DNA of 64,000 nt from Tribonema minus. Its lineage: Eukaryota > Sar > Xanthophyceae > Tribonematales > Tribonemataceae. The notes under the pieces were generated by a model, which saw nothing but the letters and a program-made list of their open reading frames with translations, was not told the DNA's origin and ran no database searches. Position numbers and translations under genes: made by a program. The stretch is taken from contig JAFCMP010000101.1 in NCBI GenBank assembly GCA_017506865.1, positions 496,001 through 560,000 of the forward strand, read 5' to 3'. Positions within the stretch are counted from its first letter, which is position 1, and the number at the start of each line of letters is the position of its first letter. Below, in pieces: positions 31,950 to 57,000 of the stretch.

Positions 31950-34900
31950 TCAGAGCCCCTCCAGCTCCTGTTCTGCAAGAGCCACAATGTGCTCTACAAA
32001 TTCTGCGGGAGCCTGTGGAATGCGTTCGGCAGAGGTCAGGAGCTGCATGGCGCTCTCGCCGTGAATCTGCACCTCGAGTGCGCGCTGTCGCAGCGCCACA
32101 AACTGGGCTAGAAGGGGCTCATTCTGGAACCCCTGCGGCAGTGGAGTCAACTGCTGCACTGCAATTGCTATGGTCTTGGTAACGAGGTCGTTGGGGGCGT
32201 TTCGCATGGACTCGGCAGCGCTCAGCAGCTGCAGCGCATTTCTCCCTCGCGCCTGCACCTGACGTGCACGCCGCTGCACCTCTGTAAAGCGTGGAGCTGT
32301 GATGGCGGTGCCCTCTGCCATTTGAAGTTTGTCCTGCTGCATCATGTGTTGCTGCTGCGGCGGCTGCAGCATTAGCTGTTGTTGCGGCCGCACCCCTGGA
32401 GTTCGCTGCTTTGCGGCAGCCTGCTGTGGCATGGAAGCTGGGCGTTGCTCTACTGCCGTTGCATGCTGCGACGGCGGCGCCACGAGCGCCCATGAAGCCA
32501 GTGCTGTAGGCGTGATCGGTGGCAGCTCGCTCTGCATTTGCCCTGCGGTGACTTCATCGTCCACAGCGCCTGCCCGTGGTACACGCCCGGCGGTGCGCCT
32601 CTGCCGTTTCGCACAGGGCGATGCTGCCGCAGAGGTCGATGGGGGGCACTGGTCGGCATCATCGCTGCTGATGGCCGATGCGCAACTCTCATAGTGGCTG
32701 CTGCTGTCGCCTGTGGAGTCTGGCCGGTCACCCATGCGTTGTGACGTCTTTTTTGGTCGCGAAGAGCGCAGCTCCGTTGTGACTTTTTCAATCACAGCTT
32801 TGCGCATTGCTGCCTGCTGCTCTGGGGAAAATTCGATCTCGGCTGGAATTGCTGTGAGCCGCGCCTGTGGGTTGCAAAGGGAAGTGGCAGTCACTGATTG
32901 AGAAGCGGAAGGCACCCTTGAGGCGAACTTGTAGAGTGAACAGCTGAGGTATCACGCCATTGAGTTAGCTTAGATGGACAATGATGCAATGTGTATGCGC
33001 TCGCCATCATTCTTGTGCCAGCTGCGGACCAAAATACTTCGAAGTAATCAGTTCATAGCAGCAGCGACTTTGTAGGCAGAGCCACGCCAGCTGGAGCGCG
33101 CATTTCCCCACCAATGTAGACAGCATCATGCAGACACCACTCAAAAGTGACACAGATCTAACATCATGGTGGTACTGACGGCTCGCCAAGCTGATACACA
33201 CAGCAGGATAAGTGCAACACGTGCACGGCACTGCTTGCCCGTCCGCCGCCCCACCCACGCAGCGCACTGACTGAGCCCCCCCCACCCCCCCCCCACCGCC
33301 CCCTCACACAATAGCACCAATGCACCCATCCAGCATCATCAGCAGCCAAAGCCATGCGCGGTCAGTGTTGGCGCATTGGCGTGCTGACGTTGCTGTAAAA
33401 AATTGACAACCATGCTGCAAGGCACGTGTTGGGAAGGGAGCAGCTCCTGAAAATGTTTGCATGCAACCTGAAGCTGAGTAGATGCCTTGCCATGGCGGCT
33501 GCCGCTTGCACCTCCACGCAAGCAGCACAACCTTGTCGCCGGCATAGCAGCAGAGAGAAAAAGGACATGCTATTAGCTTATCCGCACCTTATCACCGGGG
33601 AAGAGGACTTCAATCGCTGCGTTCCTCATGAAAGCCGCCTCCGCTGCAGTCTTGCAGGCCGGAGTGAACAGCCTGTCGCGCAGCCCATGCCTTGGCAACG
33701 TCCCACTAGCAGCAGAAGCAGTGGCGTGAAGATAAACGGCAGCAATGGCCAGAGTCAGAGCACAACAGAGGCAGTGGCACACAACGCAACAAAGCAACAA
33801 TGATTAAGGTAGCACAAGTACACAAATCGGAACATAGGAGTACCTCCTAAAGGGACCGTGCTTTGATAGCTGATGAACAACATCCGGAACATGGCTGCAG
33901 CGTGTATGCACATCTACACTATGTCTACCATGTTGTCATCCCACATACATGTTGTCATGTGCGCTTTGTGCCTGGTATTAATTGACGTGGAAAATGCGCT
34001 CCTCAATGTGAAAACACATCTGGCAATTGAGTCATCGCTGGCTGCTCCTTGACAGCCACGCTTGGGGCCCTCAAGTTAGCCCCTGTCAACCAAGCGCTCG
34101 GTTGTTGCATAAGAAGTGTGATGGAGCGAGCTGCTCAGCGGGATGCTCCATGCTCACAACTTGGCCGCGTATACTACAATTAATTTCTGAAGCTCCTTGT
34201 AAATACTGCTTCATAGTACTGACCTCATGTACCCAACAACCTGACAACGCACCATGACATCTCGAAAAGATCTCGGATACTTCGTGCCCATGAGGATGCC
34301 CGATGGGATACCTGCCCCCAACAAATCACGCTTAATTGAGCACACTCACTTCAACTGTACTGCCCCAAGAAAACAGCTGTTGTGTCCCTGAACCCCGTAG
34401 AAGCCTGTTTTGTTCTTGCTATTGCGCGCATCTCCGGTGGCACTGCTGTGTACTTTTGCGCTGCGGCGGCGCCCCTCCGTCATTGCTGGCAAGCTTGTAT
34501 GGCGCGGCTTCGCGTTGCTGTTGTCGCTAGCACCATCCTTGTCTTGCTCCGACTCAGAGGCCTGCTCTTGCAGAGGTGTGAGCAGGCATCCGTCACGTAC
34601 ATGAGCTTGTGTAGCCAGCTAGGCACGTAATGTGGCAAAGCCGAAACCAGCTTCTGCTGCACGATGCTGCGAGTACTTCGAAGTATGTTTAAAGTCCAGC
34701 GAGCAAATACTCTCACCAGCCTACAGCCAAGCGCTGCCACCAGATTGACCAGAATGTCAGGCTGTCGCCGACATAGATGGTTTACATGCAGCCTCAAGTA
34801 CTGAACGCAAAAGAAGGGGGGAGGGAGAGGGGTACCATTAGTGCAAGACTTGCCCATCCACCTCTTCCGGTAATGTGCTTCTGTCAGCCAACGCGTTTTT

Positions 34901-45034: not shown

Positions 45035-48000
45035 TCAGAGCCCCTCCAGCTCCTGTTCTGCAAGAGCCACAATGTGCTCTACAAACTCTGTGGGAGCTTG
45101 TGGGATGCGTTCGGCAGAGGTCAGCAGCTGCATGGCGCTCTCGCCGTGAACCTGCACTTCCAGTGCGCGCCGGCGCAGCGCCACAAACTGGGCTAGGAGC
45201 GGCTCATTCTGGAATGCCTGCGGCAGTGGAGCCAAGTGCTGCACGACAATTGCTATGGTATTGACAACGAGGTCGTTGGGGGCGTCACGCATGGACTCGG
45301 CGGCGCTCAGCAGCTGCAGCGTTACCCGCGCCTGCACCTGTCGTGCACGTCGCTGCACCTCTGTAAAGCGTGGAGCTATGATGGCGGTGCCCTCTGCCAT
45401 TTGAAGTTCATCCTGCTGCATCATGTGTTGCCGTTGCGGCGGCTGCAGCATCGGCTGGTGTTGCGGCTGCACCCCTGGAGTCTGCTCTGCAGCAGCCTGC
45501 TTTGGCACTGCGTGCTGCGACGGCGGCGCCGCAAGCTCCGATGAAGCCAGAGCTGTAGGCGTGACCGGTGGCAGCATGCTCAGCATTTGACTTGCGAGGA
45601 CTTGATCGTCCACTGCGCCTGCACATGGCTTACGATGTCCACCGCTGCGCCTCTGCCGTTTCGCACTGGGCGGCGCTGTGGCGGTGGTCGGTGGTGGGCA
45701 GTGCTTGGCATCATCGTTGCTGGTGGCGGAAGCGCGATGACCAGTGCTGCCTGTAGACTCCGAGCCATTGTTCAGGCCGCTTGACAGCTTTGTGGGTCGC
45801 CAAGAGGGCAGCTCCTTCGTTACCTTGTCGGTCATGATTTTGCGCATTGCTGCCTGTTGCCTTGGGGAAAAGTTGATCCCGCTTGGAATGACTGTGAGCC
45901 GTGCCTGCAAGTCACAAAGGGAAGTGGCAGTTGCTGAATGAGAAGTAGACTCTATCGCAGGTGCAGGAGCCACCGATAAAGCTGCAGTAGGAAAGACATT
46001 GTCGTCAGAGCCACGCCAGCTAGAGCATCCAAGTTTCCACCATCCTATACAGTATGGCGCATGCACCACTGCAGAAGAGACAAACATTGACTTCATGATG
46101 GCATAGGCGGCGTGCCAAGATGAGGCACAACGCACAATTGGTGCTGCACGTGGACAATTTCAGTGCACCAGCACACACAAGCAGCCAGAGTTATGCGTTT
46201 GGTGTCGGTTTCATGGTGTGCTGACTTCGTTAAGAAATGACATCAAAGATTCAGGAGCGTGGCTCTGTGGGGCTGTTGTGATGACTTGCAACTTGACTGG
46301 ACTCCAACCCACGCAACGGGGGAGGTGGCCACTCTTCAAAGTCCTGAATTAGTAGGCAGCAGTGCACGTGTTTTTCCATTGCAGCAGCTGCTGCTCACGA
46401 TGCACAAAAGCGGCACAATGTCATATTTCGAAGTACATGATCGCTTGCCCCAGCAGCGCAAAGAGCATGCAGAAGGCACATGGCGCGGGTCTCTGCACCT
46501 CATCACCAGGGTAGACGACTTCGACTGCTATGTTCCTCATGAAGGCCGCTTCAGCTGCGGTATCGCACGTCGGAGTGCGCAGCATCTTGTGCCTGCCAAC
46601 GCCCAATATGACAGCAAGGTAGGCGGGGAGCTGAGTGGCAGTTTATTAAGTCAGTATAAGAGCGCAGCAGAGACAGCGGCCAACAAGGCGACAAGGCATG
46701 GATGGGAACATGATAGTACCTGCAGGCTAAGCTCAGCAACAGCGTTTGACACACAGCATGTGATGATTTTCGCCATGTCTGCATCCACATTCGTCTGTGC
46801 ATCTGTGAAGCTTGGCATACTGTCGCAGGTACAGCAACTGACGCTGCAGCCCTCCCCCCCCCCCCCCCCCCCCTCGTTGTGAATGACCTGCAGATAATAC
46901 ACCAGAGTAGCTGCATGTACTTGTGTCTCTCCTCATATGGTAAAGCATGTAGGGGACATTTGCAATGCTCGTGTGCAGCACAAAATGCACTGCATTTGGC
47001 AAATGCAACGGCTCAGAAAAGGTGATATCTGCAGTACGAAGACTCAACTGAAGTTATACTTGCTGCCGCTGACTGGTGCTCAGCAACACCTAGCAATCGC
47101 AGCACCATATCCCAGGAACAGCACCGCACCATTCAAATGAGTCACAACAGAAGCAGTGGCCGTGGCGGCAGCATGATGTTGTCATCTCAGTCTCGTTCAC
47201 TATTTGAGTGCACTGCAGCAGGCCTTCACAGACAGCCACAAAAGAACTACTTGGAAGTATGATGCTCTCTCTCGAAATGTACGTACTATGAGCTTGGTAA
47301 CTTTTGCGGATGACCACAATGTCATCCCACGTAATGCAATGCCTTGCCATGCGCGTGTTGTGCTCGAACATGTCCCTCAATGTGAAAGGCGTCTGGCAAG
47401 CCGACTTTGGTGGCTTTCCTGGCACCCACGCCTGTGGGCATACCACAGCCATTGTCAACCCAACACATGGATGCGGCGTGTGAATACACGGCATGTGAAT
47501 ACATGATGGAGCCGCCATTACTTGGATGCTCCACATTGAGAGCTTGGCTGTGTAGACTAGGATCTGGAATCACAAACTTTTTCAGACTCTCCGAGGTTCC
47601 TTAGTGCCGACCTCAATACACATTGTCAACAATAGGATGCTGAGACCTCTGAGACACTGCTCATTGTGATGACTGCGCCCTATGAACCATGCATGATTGA
47701 GCACACTCACTTCATGCATACCGTGCCTTGGAAACAGCCCTTGCGCCCCTGAACTCCGAAGAAGCCTGTTTGGTTCTTGCTATTGCGCGCATCTCCAGTG
47801 TTACTGCTGCACAGTCTTGCACTGCCTCGCCGCACGCCTGTCGTTGCTGGCAGTTTTGTATAGCGAGGCCCGGCATAGCTGCTGTCATCGCTGTCGTCAT
47901 CGCCTTCTTGCTCTGACCCAGAGCCCTGCGGCGGTGCAGGTGCGGCTTTGTACCAGTCATGTACCTCGACAAGCAGAAGCCACTTGCACATTGAACTTGA

Positions 48001-51000: not shown

Positions 51001-54000
51001 GCTCATGATCTAGAAGTGATTTCAAGAAGGAAATCTTGGAGTTTTGTTTATGTACTAATGCTGATATACTATGATTCAACAGTCCAAGTACACTTGATCT
51101 TGTCGATTCCTCTCCTTCGGCTGCATCTGTGCAACGCACACGCCTCAGGCACAAACATCACTCTTGTGTCACTTTGTCTCGATTCGCTGCCATCAGGGCG
51201 TTCTTGTTCAATGTCGGCGCTCTGCATCGACGGAGTATGAAACATAAATACTTCTTACTCAATTGCAAGTAAGTATGTCTGCTGCATGTGCCTACATGGC
51301 TATGTCAGGCTCGCATCACAGCAGAGTTACTCTCAGGCTGTTCGGCCACCATGGACTCAACCTGGGCCAGCACTACAATGCATTCAGTACTTGTGGACTT
51401 GTAATACTTCAGAGAGAGAGATGAAAGTGGGTGACGTTTTCCGCCCTCCTGAAGGGCCCCTGGTTTGCATGGCGACAATGCCACCATTTTGTTCTAGTGC
51501 CAATTTGTGAAACTGATACTGGCATGGCAAAGCGGCAAGCAGTGCCCTCAACGCAGCACAGCAGCAGCAGGCTCGAAGCAGGCAGGTTGTGGTGCTAGCG
51601 CCACCAGTGGCAGATGTGCCACTGATAAAATATTGGTCAGTCAGTGATCACCACACAGTCATGTTCAGCATTATGACGACCAAGCGGAAGGACTCATTTG
51701 ATCTCACACCACGGCCGCTGCCACTGCCGCCACAAGCACAGGGCACCAGCATGATGCCCGGTAAGGTGCGCACTGCCAGCATAACCAGCAAGACACAATT
51801 GAGAGGACTAACCAGTGGCAGCAGCAGACTGGTGCGCCATGCACCAAGTCCAAATATCATTGTCGGTCGACATCAGGCCGCCTTGGTGCGCGCTTGCCTG
51901 GTAGCTGTGACTGCGCGTTACCTGCGGTCAAGTCGGTGCCTGCTCCACATATCCGACACCGCCAGTGGCAGTGTCGCTGCCTCCATCGCCGGCACACCTG
52001 CTTGCGATCGTCCACCTGCGCCCGCAATGCACCACCAGCCAGCAGTAGCACCCACGCCACTCGAGGCAGACGCACATACACAATCGCAACAGATACTCCC
52101 GCAACTGGGCGAACCGGGTACGCAGCGCCAGCATCTGGACGAACGAGGCACGGCCTTGATACGCACCATGTTGTCGGTGCTGAAGTACCCAAGAGCGAAG
52201 CCTTACGAGGTGCTGTGCGCCCTGGCCTGCATGTCTGGGAGGAGCATGGCAGAACTGCTGGGCACTGGACGATTCGCCGCTGCTGCCTCCACAGTATCAC
52301 ACCGCTGCTGCATTCTGTTCAAGCCCACGGACGTAACGGCAACTGCTACGCCTATCCCTCTGCTGTGCTCACCACCAACATTCTTGGGTGGACTGCGCAG
52401 ACTGCGGGAAGCGAAGCCAGGTGCTGTGGCCATGAGCGCCAGAGCCATCCACAGCAGCTATGCCAAAGGCGTCAACGCAGCCGCAAAGGCGCTGCTGGGT
52501 GATCCGCAATTTGTGTTCGGAGACCTGAGAGTTGCCTTCGCTGCGCTGACGCACAAACTCCACTGCCGCGGCAAGGGTAGTGGCAGAACTGCCACAGGTG
52601 GCGGTGGCGGTGATCATGGCGGCTGCGCTGTAAAGGCATGGCTAGACATATGCCTGCCTCATACCACCAAGCTCACTCGCAGTGCCGCCTTCCTGGCCCG
52701 CGTGGAGCATTGGTAGACGTTACCTCGTAACGTTTGTTCCCCCGTTATATTCCCCCTAAGTTCGTATATTCCCGCCAAAATGACTGCTCTCTGATTGGTC
52801 GAGTATATTCTCGCTGCTTGGGACAGAGCACGGCTTCACTACTCTGTGCTGCAACACGGCCAGCGCCGCTGTGGCTCCTGTTGTCAAAATTAGTTACGTT
52901 TTGGCCGAGCTGCTGCTGCTGCTGCCATGGTCAACAAGGACTGCATGTACGCCGGAAAGGGGTGCAGCTCTGGCAAAACGCAGCCCTTGCTAAATATGGC
53001 ATGCCGCTCGTGCATCAAGGACGGCCGTGTCGCTGGCAGTGGCAATGTGACGCACCGCGAAGCACAGGCCAAGAGGAATGCCGATTACAAGGCCAGTGGC
53101 GAGCGCAAGCAGTTCGACGACATCCACAACGCCAGGAAGAAGGCGAAGAAGGAGGCAGCCTATCGGCAGGAGGCCCAAAACCAGCTTGGCGCTGCCCTGG
53201 ATGACGAGCTGACCGATGAGGAGGCGCAGGAGGTAGTGGCCACCTGGGTTTACACCCACTCCATGGTCGCCAACTTCATCAAGCAGTCCACCACCGACGA
53301 GCCCATCAGTGGCTACTTCGGATTCACGGGCTGCCCCAGCATAGACGACGAGGCGGTCAGGTTTCTGTGGGCCCACAACTCCACCCCTGTTGTGCAGCCC
53401 CTCCATCCCGCCACGGATGCCCGCGCCAGCAAGACCAGCGGCTTCCTCACTGAGGCCAACGCCAGGAAGCTGGCAACGTGGACCCAGAAGCCCCTCTACC
53501 AGACCAACAACCTGCTCAACGTGAAGAAGATCGAATACTGGTCCCAGCAGGCGCTGGACCACCTGGACCTGGGAGTCAAGCTGTGGCGCGTGCCAGGCGC
53601 TGGGGGGGGGAAGGACAAGCGCTGCGAGATAGGCAAGGTTTGCTGCGAGATAGGCAAGGTTTACAAGCTGTTTTTCACTCAGCTGAACGACACCCCGGAG
53701 GCCCTTCGGCTGATGGTGGTGGCGTGAGCTGCTTCAGGCTCTGTACAGTTTGTGCCTGCTAGCCATCATTAGAGGTTTTGTGTGTGTGTTCGCTATGGCG
53801 CTTTTTGACTGATAGCCAGCAACGATTGTGTCTGCCACGGCACTTTTGGATTGCAGGGAGCAGTTTTTTGGTGTTGATGTGATGTGGTTGTCCCACCCCC
53901 TACGCTGACTGTGATTACACCTGCAGCAGCCTTGAGCTGTAGGTGCGCTCTGGTACAACACATGGCCATCACACAACTGACAAGAAAATGCACAGTGAAT

Positions 54001-57000
54001 TTTTGGCATCTCAGAAGATGGGCTCTATGTGTTCTGCCTACGTGCATGTCCTGTTTGCTGCCTGCTTCGAGCCTGCTGCTGCTGTGCTGCGTTGAGGGCA
54101 CTGCTTGCCGCTTTGCCATGCCAGTATCAGTTTCACAAATTGGCACTAGAACAAAATGGTGGCATTGTCGCCATGCAAACCAGGGGCCCTTCAGGAGGGC
54201 GGAAAACGTCACCCACTTTCATCTCTCTCGGAAGTACTATTTATAAAGGCCCAAGGGAGGCCGGGTTGCCTATGCAATCGAAAAGTTTGCGTCAACGCAG
54301 CAGCCTAGTCTGCACTGCGTCCTAGGAGCTTGGATACCGGCGCTGCAACACAGCCCAGCATTTGCGCTCTGCGTGTGTACGCCATGATGCATTCAGTACT
54401 CAGTTTGTTCCTACTCTGCTCAGGACTGTTTCGCCACTTGCACCAATGGTCCAATACCTAAAAAATGAGCACTCCTTTGCGATCCAGCCTGTACTGGTCA
54501 AGACTGTTCTGTGCATTCCAACAAGCTGGAGAGTCCTACTGTGCCACATTGAGTGGTTCCACCACAGTGATTGGGTCCAGCATTGTCACATTGACAACAT
54601 CCAACATACCATAAACAACGAGTCACTGTTCAGAGCGGTATGGTGTGATGTTAAAAACGAACGCTACAGCGCAGCACACTCACAGGCATGCTGACAGCCC
54701 ATTGTAGGTGATGGTACCTGCAGGCCTTCAGGAAACTGGTGCGCCCATATAACACCCCTTGTCCTACTCTCGCTTGTTCTCATGTTTCTGTTGAATCATT
54801 ACAGAGGACCATTTCGCCTCGGGTTTTCAAGGTCTTTTACAATTGAAGTTTTCTGAAGGTGTGTAATTTTAAAAGAGAACATGCCATCAAATTGTAATTT
54901 TTAGAGAACATGCCATTGAAGTTCTTAGGCATAGACTTGGAACTTATGCCTCTGGCTTACCACCGGCTTGCAAAGAATGCCTGTCACCACTTTGCACGTC
55001 ACGCAACCATCACATTCCCTGAGCTCAAACCCCAAGCCTTCATGTTCAACATGTTGACAGCAGCTACAGCAGCTACAATAAAAACTTACTTGTTACCGAG
55101 CCACAGGCGCCCCATGTACATGTTGCCATCGGTGCGCATTATGCCCTTTGTGCCGTTCGTGGATGGCAGCGCGGACCGCTGATGAACAGTGGCTGCATCA
55201 GCGTCTTCTGTTGCCATTGCTGCTGCCGCTGGTGGCTTTGATGCACTGTGGTCGCCAGCACTGGGGGTGCCAGCTCTGCTATGAGCATCACTGTGCTGCT
55301 GCAGATTAAATGCGCAAACAGCAGCAGAGCAGGCAGTGAAGGAAGCGTTGTTTGATGAGCGCGGGCTCGACTTTTAGTGGCAAGTGGTTGGTACCTCAAC
55401 ATGAAAGAATGCACTAGTCTAAAACTGTTGCACCAGTTGTTGTTCGATGTCCATTAACAATCAGTTGCTGAGGCCACCTGCAGGCGGGAAAACGAGTAAA
55501 GACTTCCCTAAGTGCAAGGCAGGGCACACACTCATTGTTGAAAGTGCCCGTCTTCTTGTTTGATGCACGCTGAAGCGCGGCAAAATCCGCTCACAGTATG
55601 TTAGATGGAAGTACTTGCTTGAATACTGCGCAGTTGAAGTTACAGGGCACTACTTCATCCGTATGTAAATGGCGTAGCATGTCACAGAATGGCATGTTCG
55701 CTGATGTACGCTTATGTACACTCATGATGGTATGGACTATCATCCACAATGCCATTGGGTTGTACCTTGGCGCCCTCTTTGTTAGCCCGCGTCTTTCGGC
55801 AAAATCGGCTAATCCTGTTGGCCATAGCCTCGCGCATTTCTGCTTCACGCTCCGGAGTGAAGTGGAGACCACCCTCCACATCAGTCAACTTCGACTGCAC
55901 ACCGAAGAGCAGAGCAGCAGAGAGCGGGGACGGCAAAAGCATTCATACATGGCCAACGGTGCGATTGTGGTGCACACTCTCATGTATCTGCTGTGCAAGT
56001 GCATCTGACCGTCGGTTCACAACTACTCATGTTCATCTTGTCCACACAGTGAGCAGCTTCTCATGGTCCATTGAGCCTGCGGGTAATACTTGAAAATTGA
56101 TCAACAAGAGGTGACACAGATGTTGGCGAACCATGACTCAAGCAACACACGCAAAAGCTGCTGACCCGGTCGTGGTGGTGACAAAGACTTTGTCTTACCT
56201 TTTACAATGAACTTTACAATTGTAGTTTACCATGCATGCACAACCACAACTTTCAACAGTCTCATTAGTTGTGCCAGATGATAATCATTGTGTCAACAAT
56301 GTGGCCGCTACGATCTCACAGTAGCATACAATATTATGAAGAGGTATATGCACCGTTAACAATGTTGTAATACTAGTACCTAAATATTGATGAGCTTTAA
56401 CAGTGATGTGGAATGTTCGCAGCTCATGCTGTAAGCGTCGCATCAGCATGACGGCCGAGTTGCAGCACCCGCTGAGAAATTCTAGCAGGTTGCTCATTGC
56501 AGCACGTGGTGAAATCATGTGCATGCTGACAGGCAAGGATGTCACCTGGGCCAAAATGCTTCAACCAGCATGGAACTTCAATCGAAATGCGCCAAGCTGT
56601 ATTTGGTCATCAACAAGCAAACCAATAATTTAAGACTCATACACTACCCAACCCTTGCCTAGTTGACAACTTGAGTATGCATCTACGGAACGTTTAGAAA
56701 CACAGCTAGTCAGCTGTCTTGAACTGCTGGAGCATGGTTTGCCGGGTAAAATGATGCTGTGCACTGAACAGAACAGTTGCTGGTCTGTATTCTGGTACTA
56801 GTGGATGTCCAGCACTTCTCCAATCCCTGCTACGTTTACTAAAATATACTGTGTGTTCAGAATTGTTCTTCTGCATGTGTTCAGCAAAGGCGACGCACCT
56901 CATCGGCAGGGAAGATAACAGCGGCGGCGAGGTTGCGCATATATGCTGCTTCTTGCACAGTACTGCACGTGCGGGTGTTCATCCGCCTGCATGGACCGCA

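Follow-up and report, generated by a model that had tools for sequence, protein, structure and literature searches.

A 64,000-nucleotide stretch of the genome of Tribonema minus, a yellow-green alga (Xanthophyceae), carries a mobile element of about 2.8 kb whose first open reading frame (ORF1) encodes a homologue of telomere resolvases, or protelomerases, in which the nucleophilic tyrosine has been replaced by phenylalanine. The stretch, referred to below as the window, comprises positions 496,001 to 560,000 of contig JAFCMP010000101.1 (assembly GCA_017506865.1; 158 Mb, 554 contigs). The element is bounded by long terminal inverted repeats (TIRs), recurs elsewhere in the genome and carries a second frame, ORF2, on the same strand. 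We give about an even chance to the interpretation that it is a TIR transposon in which ORF1, a resolvase derivative no longer capable of resolution, would bind the element ends, with cleavage provided by ORF2 or by an enzyme acting in trans.

ORF1 is homologous to telomere resolvases

The initial annotation had recognised protelomerase landmarks in ORF1, and the motifs SGRS, FGDLR and LPHTT are indeed present. The open frame, at positions 51589–52716, would encode 375 aa from a GTG codon; the start common to its relatives is the ATG at 51661, which gives 351 aa. A profile of the ORF1 branch matched complete resolvases with an expectation value (E) of 1.3e-25 and TelK with E 1.3e-9, but TelA with only 0.75. 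Scored with the PF16684 profile, the window ORF1 reached 13.8 bits (cut-off 27) and a relative from family B 27.7 bits. In structure comparisons, the predicted fold of the catalytic domain matched telomere resolvases, with EhV-86 as the best viral match, and extended weakly to Cre and Xer. Profile and fold agree that ORF1 is homologous to protelomerases, and the comparisons did not place it in another fold. In families C and D and in the metagenome protein P0004, the N-terminal part can also be aligned with complete resolvases by eye.

The ratio of non-synonymous to synonymous substitution rates (dN/dS) of ORF1 was 0.19–0.98 in 15 of 21 copy pairs, which are not independent and carry no significance test; the other six pairs, with fewer than 60 codons, were dropped.

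The ORF1 branch has lost the catalytic tyrosine

The active site was compared in a MAFFT alignment of 38 proteins, including 8 of 12 complete resolvase loci from the T. minus genome and 16 of 26 database matches. The four complete loci outside the alignment are near copies of those included (by eye), and P0006, a spliced gene model without the compared region, was excluded from the residue counts and the tree. The nucleophile column contains Tyr in all 24 complete resolvases and Phe in all 13 members of the ORF1 branch, which are not independent and represent about seven lineages. Both catalytic arginines are retained throughout the branch. The catalytic histidine is lost in 12 of the 13 members and kept in one, the window copy. 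The lysine column holds Lys in a single member; in the window ORF1 and some relatives, a Lys occupies the adjacent column. Independently of any alignment, the window ORF1 contains no Tyr past the second catalytic Arg.

Four phage resolvases have an R-K-R-H-Y active site, and that of TelA is reported to include Arg255, Lys286, Tyr363, Arg366, His394 and Tyr405 (PMC3558466). Of the full Arg-Lys-Arg-His-Tyr set, the window ORF1 keeps both arginines and the histidine and has Phe in place of Tyr; it is not a catalytically complete tyrosine recombinase of the Crypton-like kind. Judged by its residues, ORF1 is not a working resolvase by known chemistry, because the nucleophile Tyr is Phe. The initial proposal that ORF1 itself cuts palindromes and seals hairpin ends thus finds no support: the tyrosine is replaced in 13 of 13 branch members, and none follows the second Arg in the window copy.

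Element boundaries and insertion site

The element had been described as a unit of about 2.8 kb with long TIRs, a TA duplication and two same-strand ORFs, and this anatomy was confirmed (Table 1). The perfect TIR arms are 172 nt each, 100% complementary and separated by 2472 nt; beyond them, the element ends differ in a (GA)n run and a few terminal bases. Both ORFs (51589–52716 and 52927–53727) lie between the arms on the forward strand.

The insertion site is the interior of an abundant short repeat, which allowed a comparison with empty copies. A search with the rejoined flanks (40 scored of 1247 candidates) returned 37 other places that match across the junction. Of these, 29 fall short of the rejoined query by a net 6 nt, as an empty site GGACTTG-TA-TTTATAA predicts, and the others are shorter by 2 nt (three), 7 nt (three) or 5 nt (two). 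Six of the 37 were retrieved: the 6-nt gap falls at the junction in four, and the other two carry 4 extra nt there. The common empty form is GGACTTG-TATTTATAA, with one substitution near by in two of the four gap-bearing copies. A TA-duplicating insertion into this form yields the window sequence exactly, which defines the element as 51404–54237; its start lies slightly inside that given initially (51401).

The TA duplication holds for the window copy. In all four other two-ended copies with TACTTC ends (C55, C64, C89 and C526), a TA at the outer position is absent. What they share is the inner TA of the TACTTC terminus alone, a TA indistinguishable from the terminus itself, so that TA duplication is unproven as a rule across the family. 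No empty sites were found for the C89 and C64 copies, whose flanks are unique.

A chance origin of the structure was ruled out by the 172-nt perfect inverted repeat, the genomic matches to the TIR core (44, against none for a control; see below) and the empty sites. A 14-nt direct repeat, ATGCATTCAGTACT, at 51378–51391 and 54387–54400 brackets the abundant repeat and may be the target duplication of that repeat itself.

Table 1. Features of the element and its insertion site (window coordinates).
Feature	Position	Strand	Description
Mobile element	51404..54237		Defined by empty-site comparison and family copies
Left TA target duplication	51402..51403		Rejoined flank compared with empty repeat copies
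Right TA target duplication	54238..54239		Rejoined flank compared with empty repeat copies
Left TIR	51404..51585	+	Begins ATACTTC(AG)n; perfect arm 51414–51585
Right TIR	54058..54237	-	Perfect arm 54058–54229
Left TIR core	51418..51437	+	GAGATGAAAGTGGGTGACGT; common to other ORF1-bearing families with at most 1 mismatch
Right TIR core	54206..54225	-	Found by core pattern search
Abundant repeat hosting the element, left part	51387..51403		Right part starts at 54238; empty-copy comparison
ORF1	51661..52716	+	351 aa; protein of telomere-resolvase fold that lacks the catalytic Tyr; related families have the same start motif, M[FY][SC]I[MV]T
ORF1 catalytic-fold domain	52135..52713	+	Residues 159–351; Arg194 (52240–52242) and Arg290 (52528–52530) kept; Phe344 (52690–52692) replaces Tyr
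ORF2	52927..53727	+	266 aa; N-terminal cysteines; without a known domain; dN/dS < 1 in every copy pair compared
Predicted GT-AG intron of JKP88DRAFT_244055 (P0003)	52598..52909	+	Annotated model only; would fuse ORF1 to ORF2

TIRs and ORF1 recur together

A genome search with the whole element recovered about eight family copies, with matched pieces 69–90% identical, and many short matches to the inverted repeat only. Searches with ORF1 and ORF2 gave 91 and 15 matches, respectively, the latter clear on seven contigs. The TIR core GAGATGAAAGTGGGTGACGT, with at most one mismatch, had 44 matches, compared with 0 for a reversed control. This core also occurs at both ends of three more distant elements, C51, C74 and C533, whose arms measure 220 nt (100% identity), 212 nt (100%) and 325 nt (98%). 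C51 and C74 each contain an ORF1 relative and a second ORF other than ORF2 (no relation to ORF2 was found for that of C51), and C533 contains an ORF1 fragment and a distant ORF2 relative (26% identity). The TIR core and ORF1 therefore recur together, and the second ORF varies by family. In four 10-kb stretches of families B and C, where a single edge was located (family B, L071:2379), no TIR core was detected, a result that holds for those stretches and does not establish that the families lack TIRs. The element family is dispersed in T. minus, and its more distant families have the TIR core in common. As the initial annotation had anticipated, TIRs and ORFs travel together, though several copies have lost most of ORF1.

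The arms evolve in concert. Within a copy, their divergence was 0–0.024 in eight of nine two-armed copies (the one-ended copies C457 and C223 were left out), whereas the median between family-A copies was 0.144 (60 pairs, minimum 0.061). In a tree of arms, the two arms of a copy were sisters in nine of nine cases, with support of 76–100 where printed and none for the window pair. This combination of low divergence within and high divergence between copies signifies that each lineage homogenises its arms. Homogenisation would be expected if the arms pair in each cycle, as a snap-back strand, a cruciform or a palindromic joint; ordinary gene conversion could also produce it.

Termini joined at the inner TA would read GAAG-TA-CTTC (by eye), and GAAGTACTTC is the junction sequence expected for circles of the element. 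The assembly contains no exact joined-end palindrome. One perfect 22-nt palindrome, CACTCTGAAGTACTTCAGAGTG (C46:1075928-1075949), comes near the joined-end pattern with 2 mismatches, which is about the level of chance.

ORF2 and complete recombinases of sister families

ORF2 was rejected as a known enzyme: no Pfam family exceeded its cut-off, the best PHROGs match had E 0.038, and the structure model was poor, with a predicted local distance difference test (pLDDT) score of 50. All six database matches (7998 candidates scored) are in Tribonema. Its dN/dS was 0.25–0.60 in all 15 pairs among six copies, again non-independent and without a significance test, and only two acidic residues are invariant. 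The annotated gene model would fuse the two ORFs and thereby drop the C-terminal end of ORF1, a segment that both relatives and copies conserve. For four other copies, the annotation gives ORF2-like proteins of 232–266 aa (lengths only).

In families B and C, the Tyr-less protein is adjoined by another recombinase, whose residue set is complete. The family C recombinase (L069:1795-2910, reverse strand) matches the complete-resolvase profile with E 3e-5 and a probability of 73%; the match of the family B recombinase (L071:2508-4193, forward strand) is weak (E 0.054, probability 1%). The gene pairs (L069:1795-4814 and L071:2508-5865) are oriented divergently in one family and convergently in the other, and three copies of the L069 family share at least 99.7% identity across 3.56 kb. 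The pairing of a complete and a Tyr-less protein in both sister families supports a division of labour.

Complete resolvases and giant viruses

The same genome contains 12 complete telomere resolvase loci (PF16684 E 1e-17 to 2e-27). In a tree of 41 proteins, the ORF1 branch forms one clade (support 87/92) that adjoins complete proteins from the same genome and from a metagenome (node 100/100). Giant-virus major capsid genes are present on 5 of the 11 contigs bearing complete resolvases, and 4 of the 12 resolvase loci lie within 58 kb of one: L044 (C179), L045 (C90), L050 (C21) and L052 (C223), at distances of 43–58 kb. The spacing is nearly equal on C179 and C90, at about 56 kb. These four capsid-linked loci are likely giant-virus insertions of one kind. 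Phaeoviruses are reported to carry telomere resolvases, the gene is described as conserved in giant-virus insertions of Ectocarpus, and Tribonema and other Xanthophyceae are reported to harbour virus relatives termed xanthoviruses (PMC13236599). From these sequence relationships, the likeliest history is that ORF1 probably descends from a giant-virus resolvase.

Searches of IMG/VR viral contigs gave no match for the ORF1 branch or for the complete resolvases; with metagenomic resolvases as query, there was one distant match (31% identity). The flanks of the 12 complete resolvase genes, examined to about 1.5 kb, hold short palindromes only, none like the TIR junction; the true sites of these enzymes may be located outside them. 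The longest, at L054, is GC-rich, with 15-bp arms and 2 mismatches; as a control, the script recovered phage telRL-like palindromes with 12–39-bp arms.

Two neighbours of complete resolvases were also recorded. Next to the L050 resolvase lies an ORF resembling an AN1 zinc finger, with E 3e-5, a match that does not reach the Pfam cut-off, and a DDE_Tnp_1 (PF01609) transposase ORF adjoins another (L047:2233-3387). IS4-type transposons have been reported in giant-virus insertions of Ectocarpus (PMC13236599).

A resolvase derivative that may bind the element ends

We propose that ORF1 derives from a telomere resolvase, probably that of a giant virus, and has lost the chemistry of resolution. As the fold and the two phosphate-binding arginines are kept and the nucleophilic tyrosine is gone, ORF1 would most likely bind and hold the element ends rather than cut them. 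Strand cleavage and joining would then be supplied by ORF2 or in trans, the candidates being a giant-virus resolvase and the complete tyrosine recombinases of the two sister families, and the two arms would pair during each cycle. By analogy with laboratory mutants, end binding or protection is a natural guess: TelA Y405F is reported to lose resolution and keep single-strand annealing (PMC7861564), and TelN Y425F to lose resolution and still protect hairpin ends from Mre11-Rad50 (PMC12624138).

Several observations weigh against this proposal. The annealing and protection activities were reportedly traced to N-terminal domains (PMC7861564, PMC12624138), a part that ORF1 lacks; its pLDDT is below 50 over most of residues 1–150, with no ordered N-terminal part. 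The structure model was built on an alignment that included complete resolvases. The HMMER and hhalign alignments stop before the Tyr column, which depends on MAFFT, and the loss of Lys is alignment-dependent and uncertain for the window ORF1. In nine of the 13 members of the branch (those of families B, C and D, and C46), a Tyr follows the Phe at a distance of 7–8 residues, as seen in the C-terminal ends at L069, L070, L056 and L071; the window ORF1 and C51 have Trp at that position. Going by these residues, a shifted nucleophile may be conceivable in those nine and not in the window copy. Because the deep tree nodes are weak and the stem of the ORF1 branch is long (1.65), its placement could be an artefact. 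Some ORF1 pairs are weakly constrained (dN/dS up to 0.98), and the arms of C257 diverge by 0.145. Most of ORF1 is deleted in several copies in which ORF2 is still open, so ORF1 may be dispensable in cis. Finally, no enzyme domain is recognisable in ORF2, whose structure model is poor.

A more specific version, which we consider doubtful, is a split resolvase system: ORF1 would bind or protect the ends, a complete resolvase from a virus or a sister family would cut them, and a palindromic or hairpin-ended form would render the arms identical.

It is rather doubtful that the element is an ordinary DDE transposon, for example of the Tc1/mariner type, that has become non-autonomous and captured ORF1 and ORF2 as passengers. 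The TIRs, the TA duplication and the existence of inverted-repeat-only copies would fit, but a DDE domain was detected in neither ORF, and a six-frame search of the genome without splicing gave 0 matches to PF13358 at E 0.001 (other DDE superfamilies were not searched). Also against it, diverged families have ORF1 together with the TIR core, and dN/dS of ORF2 is below 1 in all pairs.

An unlikely alternative makes the element a giant-virus satellite, similar to a transpoviron, whose ends are worked by an active resolvase of an integrated or infecting giant virus, ORF1 being a derived competitor or adaptor. The complete resolvases within 58 kb of capsid genes, the branching of ORF1 among complete resolvases and the reported xanthoviruses of Tribonema and other Xanthophyceae (PMC13236599) are consistent with it. 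However, the palindromes in the approximately 1.5-kb flanks of the 12 complete genes are unlike the TIR junction (the sites may lie elsewhere), and the link to giant viruses consists of co-presence and ancestry, which do not include co-mobilisation.

We think it quite unlikely that ORF2, or the predicted ORF1–ORF2 fusion, is an unrecognised transposase responsible for the whole of the chemistry, to which ORF1 would contribute the DNA-binding half. In its favour, several copies preserve ORF2 better than ORF1, and the annotated model joins the ORFs through a GT-AG intron. Against it, the splice is a prediction that would cost ORF1 its conserved C-terminus, no relation to ORF2 was found for the second ORF of C51, the invariant acidic residues number only two, and the annotation lists four other copies as ORF2-like proteins.

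That ORF1 is instead active as a resolvase or recombinase by way of an unusual nucleophile, moving the element through palindromic joined ends or hairpin-ended linear DNA, is very improbable: the conserved fold and arginine pair, the near-identical long arms, the GAAG-TA-CTTC reading of joined ends and the downstream Tyr of nine branch members would suit it, but Tyr is Phe in 13 of 13 and His is lost in 12 of 13, the window copy has Trp at the shifted site and is Tyr-free after the second Arg, the assembly has no exact joined end, and the TelA and TelN phenylalanine mutants are reported to be resolution-dead (PMC7861564, PMC12624138).

Comparison with known systems

ORF1 resembles telomere resolvases (TelA, TelK, TelN, ResT; PF16684) in catalytic-domain fold, in sequence and in its two active-site arginines. 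It differs from them in the missing nucleophile, the non-conserved Lys, the loss of His in most of its branch, the lack of an ordered N-terminal module in the window copy and its location on a small inverted-repeat mobile element. Its nearest tree relatives are the complete resolvases of this genome, some of them near capsid genes, and EhV-86 provides its best viral structure match; unlike ORF1, the complete proteins sampled have a full active site (the EsV-1, FsV-158 and EhV-86 sequences are outside the tree). Cryptons, DIRS and Starships belong to the same enzyme superfamily as telomere resolvases and use an active recombinase, whereas the window ORF1 is inactive by residue; the TIRs of the element are long, and Cryptons are not known to have long TIRs. 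With Tc1/mariner and other TIR transposons the element shares TIRs, a TA duplication (at the window copy) and short non-autonomous derivatives; it differs in that no DDE domain was found in it and no PF13358 match in the genome.

Among the literature matches listed, which did not cover subscription papers and preprints, none describes a eukaryotic transposon with a telomere-resolvase protein. The Tyr-to-Phe change fixed here in a natural family is the one by which laboratory studies told resolution apart from other resolvase activities, and it makes the non-catalytic roles of telomere resolvases testable in a eukaryote. The family also suggests a route for a giant-virus gene into a transposon lineage. 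A split resolvase system, if true, would represent a eukaryotic mobile-element class that passes through a palindromic or hairpin-ended form.

Other genes in the window

Elsewhere in the window, two related ORFs on the reverse strand, at 31950–32915 (321 aa) and 45035–46135 (366 aa), are alike in their C-terminal halves (by eye) and form a duplicated gene family.

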